The notes beneath the pieces are model-generated. The model was not told the origin of the DNA. It saw nothing but the letters and a program-made list of their open reading frames with translations, and ran no database searches. The translations under genes and the position numbers were made by a program. 9,046 bases of DNA, from positions 1 to 9,046 of the forward strand of contig JASUTF010000020.1 of assembly GCA_030445695.1 (NCBI GenBank), given 5' to 3'. Positions 1,194-6,150 of the stretch are shown here, in pieces. This DNA is from Candidatus Iainarchaeum sp. (lineage in GTDB: Archaea; Iainarchaeota; Iainarchaeia; JAADDC01). Each line of letters begins with the position of its first letter. The stretch's first letter is position 1.

Positions 1194-2384
1194 TTACTCG
1201 TAACGGAGTGCCTCCACTGGGTCCAGTTCCGCTGCTCGCTTCGCGGGGAGATATCCGGCGATAATGCCCACGACGAAGGAGAACACCGCCGCACCGAGCA
1301 GTAGGTCCAGTCCGAGGTAGACGTGGTAGTATGATATGCCCCCGTAGTTCACTATGGCGTATTCCGTGAGTTTTGCGAGGGATACTGCGATTGCCTCCCC
1401 GAACAACCCCCCGGCAGCCCCTATGATCCCCGCCTCCACCAGGAATATCGCCATGATCTGCCACTTCGTAGCACCCACCGCCTTCATCACTCCTATCTCC
1501 CTTGTCCTCTCTGTAACGCTCATGTACATCGTGTTCATTATTCCAACCGCGCCGACGATTATGGCTATGATCGCGATAACCAGAACGACAATGCTGACGA
1601 CGCCCAGGATGGAGTTAATCGTGTTGAGCATGTCCTCCGTTGTCATGACCGTGAAGTCCTCCGTGCCCCGCTCCTGCTTTAACTTCTTCTTTATCTCCTC
1701 CGCCACCTCTTCGGGATCGGCGCCGGGGGACAGTTTTGCGACGATCGTGAGGTAAGCGGGTTCCTTTTCTCCGAGGAGTTCCTTATATGCCTCAAGGGGG
1801 ATCATCACGCTCGCGTCGTCCTGTTCGTCCCCTGCCCGCTTAAGGATACCTATGATGCGGAAGCGGCGGTCGTTTATGTATATCGTCCGCCCCACTTCCA
1901 GATCGTCTGAGAAGAGTTTGTGCGCCACGTCGTTACCCACGATTGCCACGTATTTGTCTCCCTCCCTGAAGGACCGCCCGTCCTCCATGAACGTTTCCAG
2001 GAATGTTCCGTAGAGCTTTGTGAACGTCTCCGGCGTTACCCCGTAGACGATCAAAGGTCTTCTTTCGTGCCCTACGCGGACTTCCACGGTCTTTGCAGTC
2101 ATGCCATCCGCGTAGTCCACGCCGTTGACGCGCTCTATTGCCTTGACGTCGCGATCCGTGAGTGGGTTTGGGGGCATGCTCATCATATCTGTCCCCGGGA
2201 TTACCATGATGATATCGGCCCCAAACTGGTCGAAGAGCTGCGTTATAGCTGACTGGAAGCCCCTGCTGACGGAAACGAGGAGGACGATGGCAGATATTCC
2301 TATGATAATGCCGATTATGGTGAGTATGCTGCGGAGCCTTCTATGTCTTAACCCCTTTAATGCGAGGTTAAAAAGATCGTTCAC
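1194..2384 (-). CDS. ABC transporter permease, FtsX/MacB type (second of two)
   Basis: This is a membrane permease subunit of the MacB/LolC/FtsX family (type VII ABC systems), expected to work with the ATPase at 4941-5621. It has 396 residues in the usual four-helix plan: TM1 about 18-40, a large extracytoplasmic MacB-PCD domain about 44-250, TM2 about 262-284, TM3 about 310-336 and TM4 about 355-380. The TM2-TM3 cytoplasmic segment carries the family signature MSVTERTREIG (288-298). The C-terminus ends in the typical LPAKRAAELDPVEALRYE. The start is GTG at 2384, which overlaps the TGA of the preceding permease in GTGA. A GGAGG lies at 2395-2399, 10 nt upstream. A block of about 49 residues (282-330) is identical to the neighbouring permease while the rest is clearly diverged. 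The substrate is unknown. The family includes exporters of peptides, macrolides and lipoproteins, and also non-transporting mechanotransmitters. Confidence 0.92.
   Translation of the reverse strand: MNDLFNLALKGLRHRRLRSILTIIGIIIGISAIVLLVSVSRGFQSAITQLFDQFGADIIMVIPGTDMMSMPPNPLTDRDVKAIERVNGVDYADGMTAKTVEVRVGHERRPLIVYGVTPETFTKLYGTFLETFMEDGRSFREGDKYVAIVGNDVAHKLFSDDLEVGRTIYINDRRFRIIGILKRAGDEQDDASVMIPLEAYKELLGEKEPAYLTIVAKLSPGADPEEVAEEIKKKLKQERGTEDFTVMTTEDMLNTINSILGVVSIVVLVIAIIAIIVGAVGIMNTMYMSVTERTREIGVMKAVGATKWQIMAIFLVEAGIIGAAGGLFGEAIAVSLAKLTEYAIVNYGGISYYHVYLGLDLLLGAAVFSFVVGIIAGYLPAKRAAELDPVEALRYE
1402..1550 (-). repeat. Near-identical 149-bp block, copy 1 (in second permease)
   Basis: Aligned base by base with 2580-2728 at a constant offset of 1178, this block differs at only three positions (1491, 1524 and 1543). 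Two differences are synonymous (a Gly and a Tyr codon) and one changes Gly to Val. Just outside the block the two genes diverge quickly. It encodes the TM2-TM3 cytoplasmic segment and most of TM3. Confidence 0.9.
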
Positions 2385-3568
2385 TGCCGCATCGCCTCCA
2401 CCGGATCCAGTTCAGCCGCGCTGCGTGCCGGAAGGATTCCAGAAATGACCCCGACGAGTGCGGAGAATCCTACGAGCCCTAAAACGAGGAGGGACGGGAA
2501 TGCTGCCGAGTATGACTCAAGGGACGCACGTATAACCCCTTCGAGTGTTTTGACGATGCCAAAGCCTATGATTTCTCCAAACAACCCCCCGGCAGCCCCT
2601 ATGATCCCCGCCTCCACCAGGAATATCGCCATGATCTGCCACTTCGTAGCACCCACCGCCTTCATCACGCCTATCTCCCTTGTCCTCTCTGTAACGCTCA
2701 TATACATCGTGTTCATTATTACAACCGCCCCAATGACCAGAGATATTGCCGCTATTGTGACGAGGAGGGCCCCCACCATTCCAAGGATTTGGTTCGCCCT
2801 TTCCATTGCCTGTTCGGGCGTGATCACCCTGAAGTTCTCCAACCCTCCGTGCAGCGCCTTCAGACGCCTCTTTATGCGTTCCACCACGTCGTCCACATTG
2901 GCTCCCTCTGCAAGTTCCGCCGATATTCTCACGTATTCTCTTTCTCTCCCCGTTATCTCCTGGAAGACGGACTCGGGGATATACGCTCCAGCATCCAATG
3001 GGCTGTTGGTCTTCTTCATCACGCCCACGACGCGGAAGGGCTTGCCGTTTATGTAAACCGTGCTCCCCGGAAGGATGTCCTTGCCGAAGAGGTCGTGGGC
3101 TACAGAGTACCCGATCAATGCAACGTACCTTCCCCTGTCCGTTCTGTCCAGTATCCTTCCCGACTCAAGGTATCCGCCCAGCAGGCTCTGGAACGTTTTG
3201 TTGAACGCATCGGGGTCCACGCCAAATATCGTGATCCCCTTCTCCTCTCCCCATGCGCTTATGGTCGCATGGTCTGTCTGGAGCGCCAGGACGTTCTTCA
3301 CGCCGGGCGTGTTCTCTATGGCCTTTCGGTCCTCCTCCGTCAGGACGTCACCACCCAGATTCATGCCTACCATGGTCCCCGGGATCACCGTGATCCTGTT
3401 GGTCCCCAGTTTTGACAGTTCTCCCCGAACAGTTTCCTGTAGACCGAGTATGAGCGAAACCAGTGTGAAGATCGCGGCAATGGCGACCACTATGGCGATT
3501 ATTGTGAGAAATGAGCGGAGGGGCTGGTGCCTGAGCCCCCGCCATGCCAGGAAGCCATAGTCCATCAC
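2381..3568 (-). CDS. ABC transporter permease, FtsX/MacB type (first of two)
   Basis: This is the second, non-identical permease of the same system, 395 residues long. TM1 lies about 18-42, a MacB-PCD-like extracytoplasmic domain about 45-255, TM2 about 263-286, TM3 about 312-338 and TM4 about 358-380. It carries MSVTERTREIG (290-300) and ends in LPARSAAELDPVEAMRQ. Two starts are possible. GTG at 3568 overlaps the upstream TGA as GTGA; ATG at 3565 is the next codon. GGAGG at 3577-3581 is 8 nt from the GTG and 11 nt from the ATG, so GTG is preferred. With its neighbour it probably forms a permease heterodimer around one ATPase dimer, as in LolC/LolE with LolD. Its extracytoplasmic domain is only distantly similar to that of its partner, so the two may have different external roles. 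Family assignment is firm and the substrate unknown. Confidence 0.92.
   Translation of the reverse strand: MMDYGFLAWRGLRHQPLRSFLTIIAIVVAIAAIFTLVSLILGLQETVRGELSKLGTNRITVIPGTMVGMNLGGDVLTEEDRKAIENTPGVKNVLALQTDHATISAWGEEKGITIFGVDPDAFNKTFQSLLGGYLESGRILDRTDRGRYVALIGYSVAHDLFGKDILPGSTVYINGKPFRVVGVMKKTNSPLDAGAYIPESVFQEITGREREYVRISAELAEGANVDDVVERIKRRLKALHGGLENFRVITPEQAMERANQILGMVGALLVTIAAISLVIGAVVIMNTMYMSVTERTREIGVMKAVGATKWQIMAIFLVEAGIIGAAGGLFGEIIGFGIVKTLEGVIRASLESYSAAFPSLLVLGLVGFSALVGVISGILPARSAAELDPVEAMRQ
2580..2728 (-). repeat. Near-identical 149-bp block, copy 2 (in first permease)
   Basis: This is the partner of 1402-1550, with 146 of 149 positions the same. It covers codons for the segment from IMNTMYM to AAGGLFGE. 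It is a direct repeat within two tandem paralogous genes and not a mobile element. Confidence 0.9.
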
Positions 3569-4944
3569 TTACGCTTCCTCCACCACCAGACTGCCCCTAC
3601 AATCACAAAGAGGGCCAGGAGGAGTGCAGTGTAGTTTGCAGGCTTCTTCGGTACCTTGACGGCTATGTCATCCTCCTCTGTCTTCCGCTCGCCGTATGCC
3701 GTGTAGGTGACCTTTACGTGTATCTTCTCCTCCTCGCCCGGGTCGGAGAGGTATACCGTTGCCGTGTCGTAGTCGCCCGGGGCGAGGTCTCCTATGCTGT
3801 CCTTGCCAGCGAATGCCTTTGGACTGTTGGTCTCCACGAAGACGTTCTCTGCCGTTCCGGTGCCCACGTTCGCCACCGCTATGGTTACCTTGAGGTGATC
3901 TCCCTCCCACTTCGGCTCCTCTGCCAGGTATACGGAAATTTCCGGCTCGTCCTCCGGCAGGACAGAGAAGGAGTACGTCCTAGTCCCCGTTGGTGTCGTG
4001 AGGACCACGTTTATACTGCCCACCTCGTCGCTCTTCTCCAGTTTCCACACCACGGGGATTGTTACCTTCCCATTGGGTTGGATGGCGTTGATGTAGTGGG
4101 ATGTCTGGCCACCGAGGCGCACATTGATCCCCGTTATGCTCACGGAGATCGGGCCGAGCGCCACGGATGTGAGATTCGTTATTACGAGTTCTGTGTTCTG
4201 CTCGCCGCCGCTGACCTTCTCAGGGATGTTCATCGTTACCCTGATGTCCTCCCTCGGCGGGACGCATTTCACGGAGTAGTTCACCGTTTCGGAGAATGCT
4301 TCCGTCCCCCTGTATCCACTTATAGTTAGAGGAATCGTGTATATGCCTCCGTTGCACTCTGGCAGGATTGTGACGTACGTTTCCTTTTCCTCGCCGCTCC
4401 CTATGTCTCCGAGGTATACGTTCGGATCCCCAAGGGCAGAGGGGACCGTGAGGACCGCGTTGTATATCTTTTCCCCGCTGTTGCTCACCGTGAACTTGAC
4501 GCTCATCTCCCTGCCGCCGTACACCCTGTCCGTGCTCATCTTCACGTCAATGCCCTTGCCAGAGGTAACAGTTATGATCGGGGCGAATTGCTCCTCGTAG
4601 TGCGTGCCTGTGGTGGGGTCGTCATATTCTATCGTAACTGGGAGTACGTATACGCCCGGTTTGATGTCTGAGGGGACGGAAAAGCCGAGGACGTATGAAA
4701 CGGTCCCACCCATTGCGTCTCCCACGTCTATCCTTGTGTCTTCGTCCTCTATGCTGAACTGGTCGGAGGGGCCGACCCGCATGTATATGTTCTTCGCACC
4801 GCTCGTTGCAGTGATTTCAAATATCATTTTTCCGCCTGTCCCCGGGGTTACAACGCCCGGGACTGTTTTTACGTTAAGCGTGAGCGCAAATGCGCTCCAG
4901 GAAAGCATAATCAATGCCAGTGCAACCAGCAAATACCTTCTCAT
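3565..4944 (-). CDS. Secreted, membrane-anchored CARDB/COG1361-like beta-sandwich protein
   Basis: The protein has 459 residues. Residues 1-20 are a typical signal sequence (two Arg, a hydrophobic core, then AFA), and 438-455 is a single membrane helix followed by WWWRKRK, a positively charged stop-transfer end. The body should therefore face outside. Residues 22-432 look like about four beta-sandwich modules of 95-105 residues (roughly 22-128, 131-228, 232-330, 334-432). They show CARDB/NEW3-like features such as [18 protein letters not shown] and [19 protein letters not shown]. The only two cysteines, C197 and C227, could form a disulfide. N-glycosylation sequons occur at N222, N257 and N437. 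The ATG at 4944 overlaps the ATPase stop as ATGA and has GGGGTGAT at 4951-4958, 6 nt upstream. Its place between ATPase and permeases suggests it is the extracytoplasmic partner of the ABC complex. That role is inferred; no enzymatic motif is seen. Confidence 0.82.
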
Positions 4945-5621
4945 TTTTCAATCACCCCTTCTATTTTCCCATCTCGGATCTTCACGATTTTTTCCGCCTC
5001 TTCGGCGATTTCAGGATCGTGCGTGACTATGACAATCGTCTTCCCCCTTTTGTTGAGGTCCTTGAAGATCTTCAGTATCTTCTCACCCGTCTTTGTGTCC
5101 AGGTTGCCCGTGGGCTCGTCCCCCAGTATGATCTCGGGGTCGTTTGCCAGGGCGCGGGCAATGGCCACACGCTGCTGCTGGCCCCCGGAGAGTTGGTTCG
5201 GGTAGTGGTAGAGCCTATGCCCCAGTCCAACCATCTCCAGGAGTTCCTTTGCCCTCTTCTCCCTTTCTCTCTTCGGCACGCCTGCGAAGAGCATGGGGAG
5301 TTCCACGTTCTCCAGCGCGTTCAGCGAGGGGCTGAGGTTGTACTGCTGAAAGACGAATCCCACGGTTTTCCTCCTCATTATGGCGCGCTCGTCGTCTGAG
5401 AGTGTGGAAACGTCCTTGCCCTTGAGAAGAACCTTCCCTTTCGTGGGCGTGTCCAGAAGGCCGATGATGTGCATGAGCGTGCTCTTCCCCGAGCCGGAGG
5501 GGCCTATGATGGCCACGAAGTCTCCCTGCTCTATGTCAAGGGATACTCCTCTCAACGCGTAGGTTGCGGCGTCTCCCTCGCCGTATATTTTCCAGACGTC
5601 GCGCACGGATATTATCCCCAC
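4941..5621 (-). CDS. ABC transporter ATP-binding protein, LolD/MacB family
   Basis: This cytoplasmic ATPase (226 residues, normal for the LolD/FtsE/YknY group) would power the two permeases that follow. All motifs are present: Walker [10 protein letters not shown] (40-48), Q-loop [10 protein letters not shown] with Q92, signature [15 protein letters not shown] (144-158), Walker B IILGDEP (164-170) followed by TGNLD, and H-loop H201 in VTHDP. The DEPTGNLD stretch is typical of this subfamily. Gly precedes the Asp of Walker B where Ala is usual. The start is GTG at 5621. No ribosome site precedes it, but a TATA box centred at 5647 lies 26 bp upstream, so the mRNA is probably leaderless. It is the first gene of the four-gene operon and is divergent from the PadR gene, which is probably its repressor. 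Function as an ATPase is near certain; the exported or moved substrate is not known. Confidence 0.95.
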
Positions 5622-5643
5622 GGTATTATGGTGTCGTAATAAG

Positions 5644-5650
5644 TTTATAA
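5644..5650. promoter_or_regulatory. Shared bidirectional TATA box for padR and the ABC operon
   Basis: TTTATAA on the plus strand reads TTATAAA on the minus strand. Its centre (5647) is 27 bp before the padR GTG (5674) and 26 bp before the ATPase GTG (5621), the usual TATA-to-start distance in archaea. Neither start has a ribosome site. One box may thus serve two leaderless transcripts. The plus-strand side (AATAAG before the box) looks the better BRE. Confidence 0.6.
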
Positions 5651-5659
5651 CGATATCGT
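5650..5659. promoter_or_regulatory. Perfect palindrome ACGATATCGT, candidate PadR operator
   Basis: The 10-bp perfect palindrome abuts the shared TATA box. It lies between TATA and start for padR and on the BRE side for the ABC operon. The half-site TCGTAA occurs at 5656-5661 and again at 5634-5639 in the same direction, 22 bp (about two turns) apart. A bound repressor here could block both promoters. It does not match the ATGT-N8-ACAT pattern known for some PadR proteins. Confidence 0.5.
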
Positions 5660-5673
5660 AACAACATTACTCC

Positions 5674-6150
5674 GTGGTAAAGGTATCCCTCGCCAAGTTG
5701 CTCATGCTTAAGTGGTTATCCGAGGGCCCTGCGAGCGGATACGAGCTCATGAAGAAGTATGAGGAAGCGTTCGGCCGTTCTTCCCCCGGAACGATCTACC
5801 CCCTCCTCTCCCAATTGCAGGAAAAGGGCTTTGTGGACAAGGGGGACGACGGGAAGTTTTTCCTTACTGAGAAGGGACGGAAACTGTTCTCCGAGATCGA
5901 AGAGCGCCGCAGGGAACTTATTCGAGAGGCGAGGAAGCGTTTGAAGGCGCTTGCGGACGTTTTTGAAGAGCCGTATCTGGCACGCCTTGCGGACTACCTT
6001 CCGGTTATGGAACACGTTCCCCCCAGCGTTCTTGAAGTCCTTGGAGATGTTGAGATCCTTGCCTATGAACTCGGCGAGGATGCGCTTCCCGTTCTTGAAG
6101 AGGCGAAGAAGAAGTTGGAGAAGATCAGCGGTGCGTCCAGTAGAAGGTGA
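5674..6150 (+). CDS. PadR-family winged-helix transcriptional regulator
   Basis: This DNA-binding protein has 158 residues. Residues 5-75 form the PadR winged helix, with the marks SGYELMKKY (21-29), SPGTIYPLLSQLQEKGFV (37-54) and FFLTEKG for the wing (62-68). Helices rich in Glu, Arg and Lys (72-98) follow, then a mixed C-terminal part (100-150) that should serve in dimerisation. PadR proteins are typically repressors that often sit beside and control ABC exporter genes. Here the gene is divergent from an ABC operon with 52 bp between start codons and a palindrome there, so control of that operon and of itself is likely. The start is GTG at 5674 with no ribosome site, 27 bp after a TATA box, which suggests a leaderless mRNA. 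Its last 26 nt overlap the end of gltX on the other strand. The inducing ligand cannot be read from the sequence. Confidence 0.9.
   Translation: MVKVSLAKLLMLKWLSEGPASGYELMKKYEEAFGRSSPGTIYPLLSQLQEKGFVDKGDDGKFFLTEKGRKLFSEIEERRRELIREARKRLKALADVFEEPYLARLADYLPVMEHVPPSVLEVLGDVEILAYELGEDALPVLEEAKKKLEKISGASSRR

Follow-up and report, generated by a model that had tools for sequence, protein, structure and literature searches.

Recurrent, domain-limited gene conversion at the coupling helix of paired MacB/FtsX-type permeases in archaea

Two adjacent permease genes of an operon from Candidatus Iainarchaeum sp., here termed A and B, share an almost identical stretch of about 150 bp in otherwise strongly diverged sequences. 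Both genes lie in the window, the stretch of 9,046 nucleotides of contig JASUTF010000020.1 that was analysed. We are highly confident that this similarity reflects recurrent gene conversion that is limited to a single domain. A and B are old paralogues within one operon and likely represent the two dissimilar halves of a single MacB/LolCDE-like (type VII) ABC transporter that is served by one ATPase. Ectopic conversion between the adjacent copies appears to have overwritten about 150 bp of one gene with the other in the recent past, presumably by RadA-dependent homologous recombination, and RadA is encoded in the genome. The segment from the end of TM2 over the coupling helix to TM3 has been homogenised repeatedly and independently in related archaea, while the remainder of the genes has kept diverging. 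Exchange would start in this loop as local identity peaks there, and conversions may persist, by tolerance or by selective advantage, only in the element that docks to the ATPase and be purged where the subunits have specialised. We consider it likely that this explanation holds as a whole, namely conversion that is confined jointly by local identity and by selection on the docking element.

The draft genome behind the window has a size of 664 kb and carries an archaeal SSU rRNA as well as archaeal-type GluRS and TyrRS; the window lies on its contig C7. The operon is arranged in the order ATPase-CARDB-B-A, and start and stop codons overlap between neighbouring genes (Table 1). Permease A uses a GTG start, with a 4-bp overlap into the stop of permease B. 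Overall, the two permeases are 47% identical. In operons of the window's family the CARDB gene sits between the ATPase and the permeases. Its product has an apparent N-terminal signal sequence, a C-terminal transmembrane segment and a basic tail, and might possibly act as an extracytoplasmic partner in the role of an adaptor. An A+T-rich palindromic intergenic stretch (5635-5674) adjoins the gene for the PadR-like regulator.

Table 1. Features of the permease operon and its surroundings (window coordinates)
Feature	Position	Strand	Description	Source
Permease A	1194-2384	-	MacB_PCD + FtsX, 396 aa	Pfam
Converted tract, copy A	1402-1550	-	residues 279-328; 146/149 to copy B	
Permease B	2381-3568	-	MacB_PCD + FtsX, 395 aa	Pfam
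Converted tract, copy B	2580-2728	-	residues 281-330; 146/149 to copy A	
CARDB-domain protein	3565-4944	-	CARDB 4.4e-10; same order in family relatives	Pfam
ABC ATPase, MacB/LolD type	4941-5621	-	ABC_tran	Pfam
PadR-like regulator	5674-6150	+	PadR 2.1e-10; divergent from operon	Pfam

Both permeases belong to the MacB/FtsX-type (type VII) family, with MacB_PCD and FtsX above the Pfam cut-off in A as well as in B. Permease A is collinear with MacB through the coupling segment (5gko, E=5e-43), and the tract comprises the end of TM2, the coupling helix and half of TM3, homologous to TM2-CH1-TM3 of MacB. In MacB and LolCDE the coupling helix that touches the ATPase lies in the stretch linking TM2 to TM3 (PMC5985334, PMC5673888, PMC8333309), and the coupling helices of LolCDE undergo the largest movement upon ATP binding (PMC8333309). 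The collinear alignment and the position of the coupling helix agree with a preliminary description of this DNA, which had placed the tract in the cytoplasmic TM2-TM3 segment that touches the ATPase. The helices of the segment are visible in an AlphaFold model, which was built from two sequences and has low confidence (mean pLDDT 54). The best PDB matches of the ATPase are 5xu1, MJ0796, MacB and LolD, and it is predicted to be the single motor subunit that serves A and B. A shared ATPase had been proposed before and fits the gene content, one ATPase gene for two permeases in the operon. The operons of the relatives also have one ATPase gene of this type each, either in the same order as in the window or as permease-ATPase-permease. 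In this second operon type the gene between the permeases was considered as an insertion, an idea that was rejected because the gene encodes the ATPase.

Two unlike permeases with a single ATPase gene make up a LolCDE-like gene set (PMC8333309), and judged from the sequence A and B would form a heteromer on one ATPase. However, LolCDE is a bacterial lipoprotein extractor, and the window permeases stay far below the cut-off of the LolC/LolE equivalog TIGR02212 (111.9 and 76.7 bits compared to 362.5). MacB (PMC5985334, PMC5673888) shares the same domains, is the best match among solved structures and has its coupling helix in the same position. In contrast to the window, where a separate ATPase and two different permeases are found, MacB is a homodimer with a fused ATPase.

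The two copies of the tract are in register at a spacing of 1178 bp, with longest exact runs of 89 and 32 nt. The match reported in the preliminary description was confirmed, and a recount yields two synonymous changes, Gly GGA/GGC at 1491/2669 and Tyr TAC/TAT at 1524/2702, and one nonsynonymous change at 1543/2721 (GGA Gly281 in A, GTA Val283 in B). The flanks are indeed diverged, as had been noted. Identity drops to about 35-55% directly on either side of the tract, and outside of it A and B are about 50% identical in DNA. Even at an identity of 66%, as found for the loop in unconverted pairs, the chance of such a match is about 1e-22. Synonymous divergence along the genes is not uniform. 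At identical residues (Met and Trp excluded) the same codon is used in 40 of 43 cases within the tract versus 66 of 133 outside (Fisher p=8.5e-8), and a codon-column permutation for clustered synonymous identity gave p=0.0002, which is the floor for 5000 shuffles. With synonymous identity concentrated in the tract, the signal does not come from protein conservation, and the earlier argument that selection on the protein alone is insufficient is borne out. No third copy of the tract exists in the 664-kb genome, hence no third donor was found.

If purifying selection together with codon bias held the segment identical, conversion would not be needed, and the segment is in fact conserved at the protein level in all pairs. 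Three relatives from the family retain the complete A/B pair with unchanged operon order. In DNA, B of the window is 66% identical to its orthologue in G006 in the remainder of the gene and 79% in the tract, while A and B of the window are 50% identical in the remainder and 97% in the tract. Between genomes only about half of the synonymous codons in the segment are kept (20/37 for B of the window and of G006), compared to 37/42 between A and B within the window. The orthologue comparison refutes codon bias with purifying selection, to which we assign next to no probability. The preliminary description had proposed to compare close relatives, and within-genome copies are closer to each other in the tract than to G006.

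Tree tests were carried out with the A/B pairs from four genomes (the window's genome, G006, G003 and G008), treating tract and remainder separately. For the tract, orthologue clades are rejected (delta lnL 89, p-AU 2e-42), again at odds with purifying selection. For the remainder, within-genome clades of paralogues are rejected (delta lnL 272, p-AU 2e-8). In the tract tree the copies from the window, G006 and G003 each group with the paralogue from the same genome (support is 100 in G003 and 52 in G006); those of G008 pair only weakly (47), with long branches and without a clear tract. In the remainder tree the A copies of the different genomes group together, as do the B copies, and both clades are well supported. 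Paralogues are thus more alike than orthologues inside the tract only, and the reverse holds outside, which is the pattern of domain-limited conversion. As the copies are adjacent, each genome could also have duplicated the gene recently and on its own, with the sequence outside the loop diverging rapidly afterwards. The separate A and B clades outside the tract place the duplication before the genera, so the remainder tree refutes this scenario, and we consider it practically impossible. The recent gene conversion that had been proposed for the window is supported by both the clustering of synonymous identity and the conflict between tract and remainder trees.

The phenomenon extends beyond the window. 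We searched 87 genomes of the window's phylum and 23 of a second archaeal phylum, and obtained 69 pairs of neighbouring permease genes. A synonymous scan returned 16 pairs with p<=0.0014, and in 14 of these 16 the best segment lies within residues 264-336 of B. Of the two top pairs that fall elsewhere, L077 looks spurious as its segment is only 51% identical, whereas L119 has a real tract. Exact runs of 30 nt or more occur in the TM2-coupling helix-TM3 loop in 23 of 67 pairs, in residues 361-395 in 2 of 63 and in residues 1-45 in none of 66; every other gene region of the surveyed pairs is free of them. Within a genome, tract identity is higher than to any other genome compared, with 0.97 vs 0.83 for the window, 0.99 vs 0.91 for G029, 1.00 vs 0.86 for G100 and 0.96 vs 0.72 for G031, and the same excess is seen in G006, G003, G083, G038, G058, G068 and others. 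Because the own paralogue comes out above any other genome in most strong cases, the events are independent or repeatedly refreshed, and from these sequence comparisons at least ten homogenisations look independent. Tracts are found in both operon types, with the ATPase outside the pair and in the order permease-ATPase-permease. About two thirds of the surveyed pairs have no clear tract, hence homogenisation is not required.

Outside the two phyla, a third archaeal phylum gave single matches only at the chosen threshold, and a scan of genome contigs for relatives returned one distant relative. Six bacterial tandem permease pairs, a small sample, had no tract. A 55-nt exact run at residues 356-374 was observed in L119 (G012:C1:1000000-1005500), which stems from a single-contig genome, and G069 has a second exact run at residues 373-386 toward the C-terminal end. 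Both would lie in TM4, near a minor contact, with the run of L119 at the start of this helix rather than in the coupling loop.

Near-identical neighbouring sequences raise the question of whether a short-read assembler has collapsed or chimerised the copies. The genome is a fragmented draft, and permease frames are broken or 16-30 codons short in the tract segment in L107 (434-1390 and 192-488), L126 (1335-2219 and 1070-1378) and L132 (2063-3172 and 3850-4875); these lesions are probably assembly faults at a shared tract and possibly real. The copies in the window are not the product of a collapse, since they differ at three sites and are both located on one contig. Moreover, the version of the tract is specific for each genome, and an artefact would not be expected to produce, across many unrelated bins, synonymous patterns that differ between genomes but agree within each; we therefore regard it as very improbable. 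Where a permease ORF is cut off by a contig end, the break falls in the tract segment in 11 of 16 cases and in 8 of 12 genomes, more than expected (binomial p 2e-5 and 4e-4; the segment was delimited post hoc). Two contig ends of G002 (L039/L040, C3 and C12) stop in the tract with exactly 91 bases in common, and two of G069 (L085/L122, C18 and C13) do so with exactly 57. These overlaps fit shared tracts that the assemblers failed to cross. As assemblies break at shared tracts, perfect tracts are under-represented among intact pairs.

Why conversion is confined to this loop is less clear than the conversion itself. It might be entirely passive. Recombination requires near-identity, only the conserved loop would supply enough of it, and no benefit from matching would be involved. 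In unconverted pairs, exact seeds of 15 nt or longer are present in the loop in 5-9 of 33 pairs, at the N-terminus in 1 of 33 and at the C-terminus in 0 of 33. Mean nucleotide identity is 0.66 in the loop, compared to 0.60 and 0.62 for the terminal segments and 0.43-0.49 for other gene regions. However, amino acid identity of the N- and C-terminal segments (0.54 and 0.56) comes close to that of the loop (0.60), yet the long exact runs counted above are almost restricted to the loop. The second observation that speaks against a passive process comes from G100 (L099), a member of the second phylum. Four relatives from the same genus have distinct coupling segments, KATGASNAQVMKIF in the first permease and KAIGATDGMVLRIF in the second, or close variants. 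In G100 both permeases carry KATGASNAQVLRIF inside a 72-nt exact run. Within the genus this tract is restricted to G100; the relative L098 shares a shorter run of 32 nt. The second permease of G100 has acquired KATGASNAQ of the first, and the common tract also contains LRIF of the second, so that exchange may have occurred in both directions. Since several coupling-helix residues were replaced in G100, conversion in this case is not a silent by-product. A purely passive origin nevertheless keeps a considerable, if smaller than even, probability, and selection as the explanation for the confinement stands at about even odds. A joint cause is favoured because the terminal segments have nearly equal protein identity and almost no tracts.

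Limited conversion between tandem paralogues has been described before. TLR1 and TLR6 are the closest known case, in which nine mammals underwent independent conversions of almost the same segment, ascribed to co-evolution with shared partners (PMC2077338). These receptors are likewise tandem paralogues with a common dimer partner and diverging other regions, and the archaeal permeases resemble them in that several lineages have independently converted almost the same segment. There are clear differences, as the TLR segment of these mammalian receptors spans about 300 residues, while the archaeal tracts cover roughly 10-60 residues centred on the coupling helix. In prokaryotes, a survey identified long-lasting concerted evolution for 26 genes, most of them in complexes (PMC6053082). 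This resembles the recurrent conversion over long times seen here, but was described for genes, amoCAB among them, and not for a short segment, and the words permease and ABC transporter are absent from that paper. In the open-access literature we found no report that ties gene conversion to a transporter coupling helix or to ABC permeases.

Domain-limited concerted evolution, described in a vertebrate receptor pair, is hereby extended to archaeal transporters. A practical warning follows for trees and assemblies of such operons, which are distorted at the coupling segment. Conversion may be kept because both permeases stay matched to the ATPase. Tentatively, recurrent conversion in heteromeric MacB/LolCDE-type transporters of archaea could be maintained as a way for two specialised permeases to keep a common docking module, which would evolve as one unit and in step with the groove of the ATPase while other parts of each subunit diversify. 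In type VII ABC permeases the converted tracts would mark a docking module that can be exchanged and is usable for the design of chimeras, and the at least ten apparently independent events may be seen as a replicated natural experiment that separates the part of a subunit that has to fit the partner from the part that is free to diverge.
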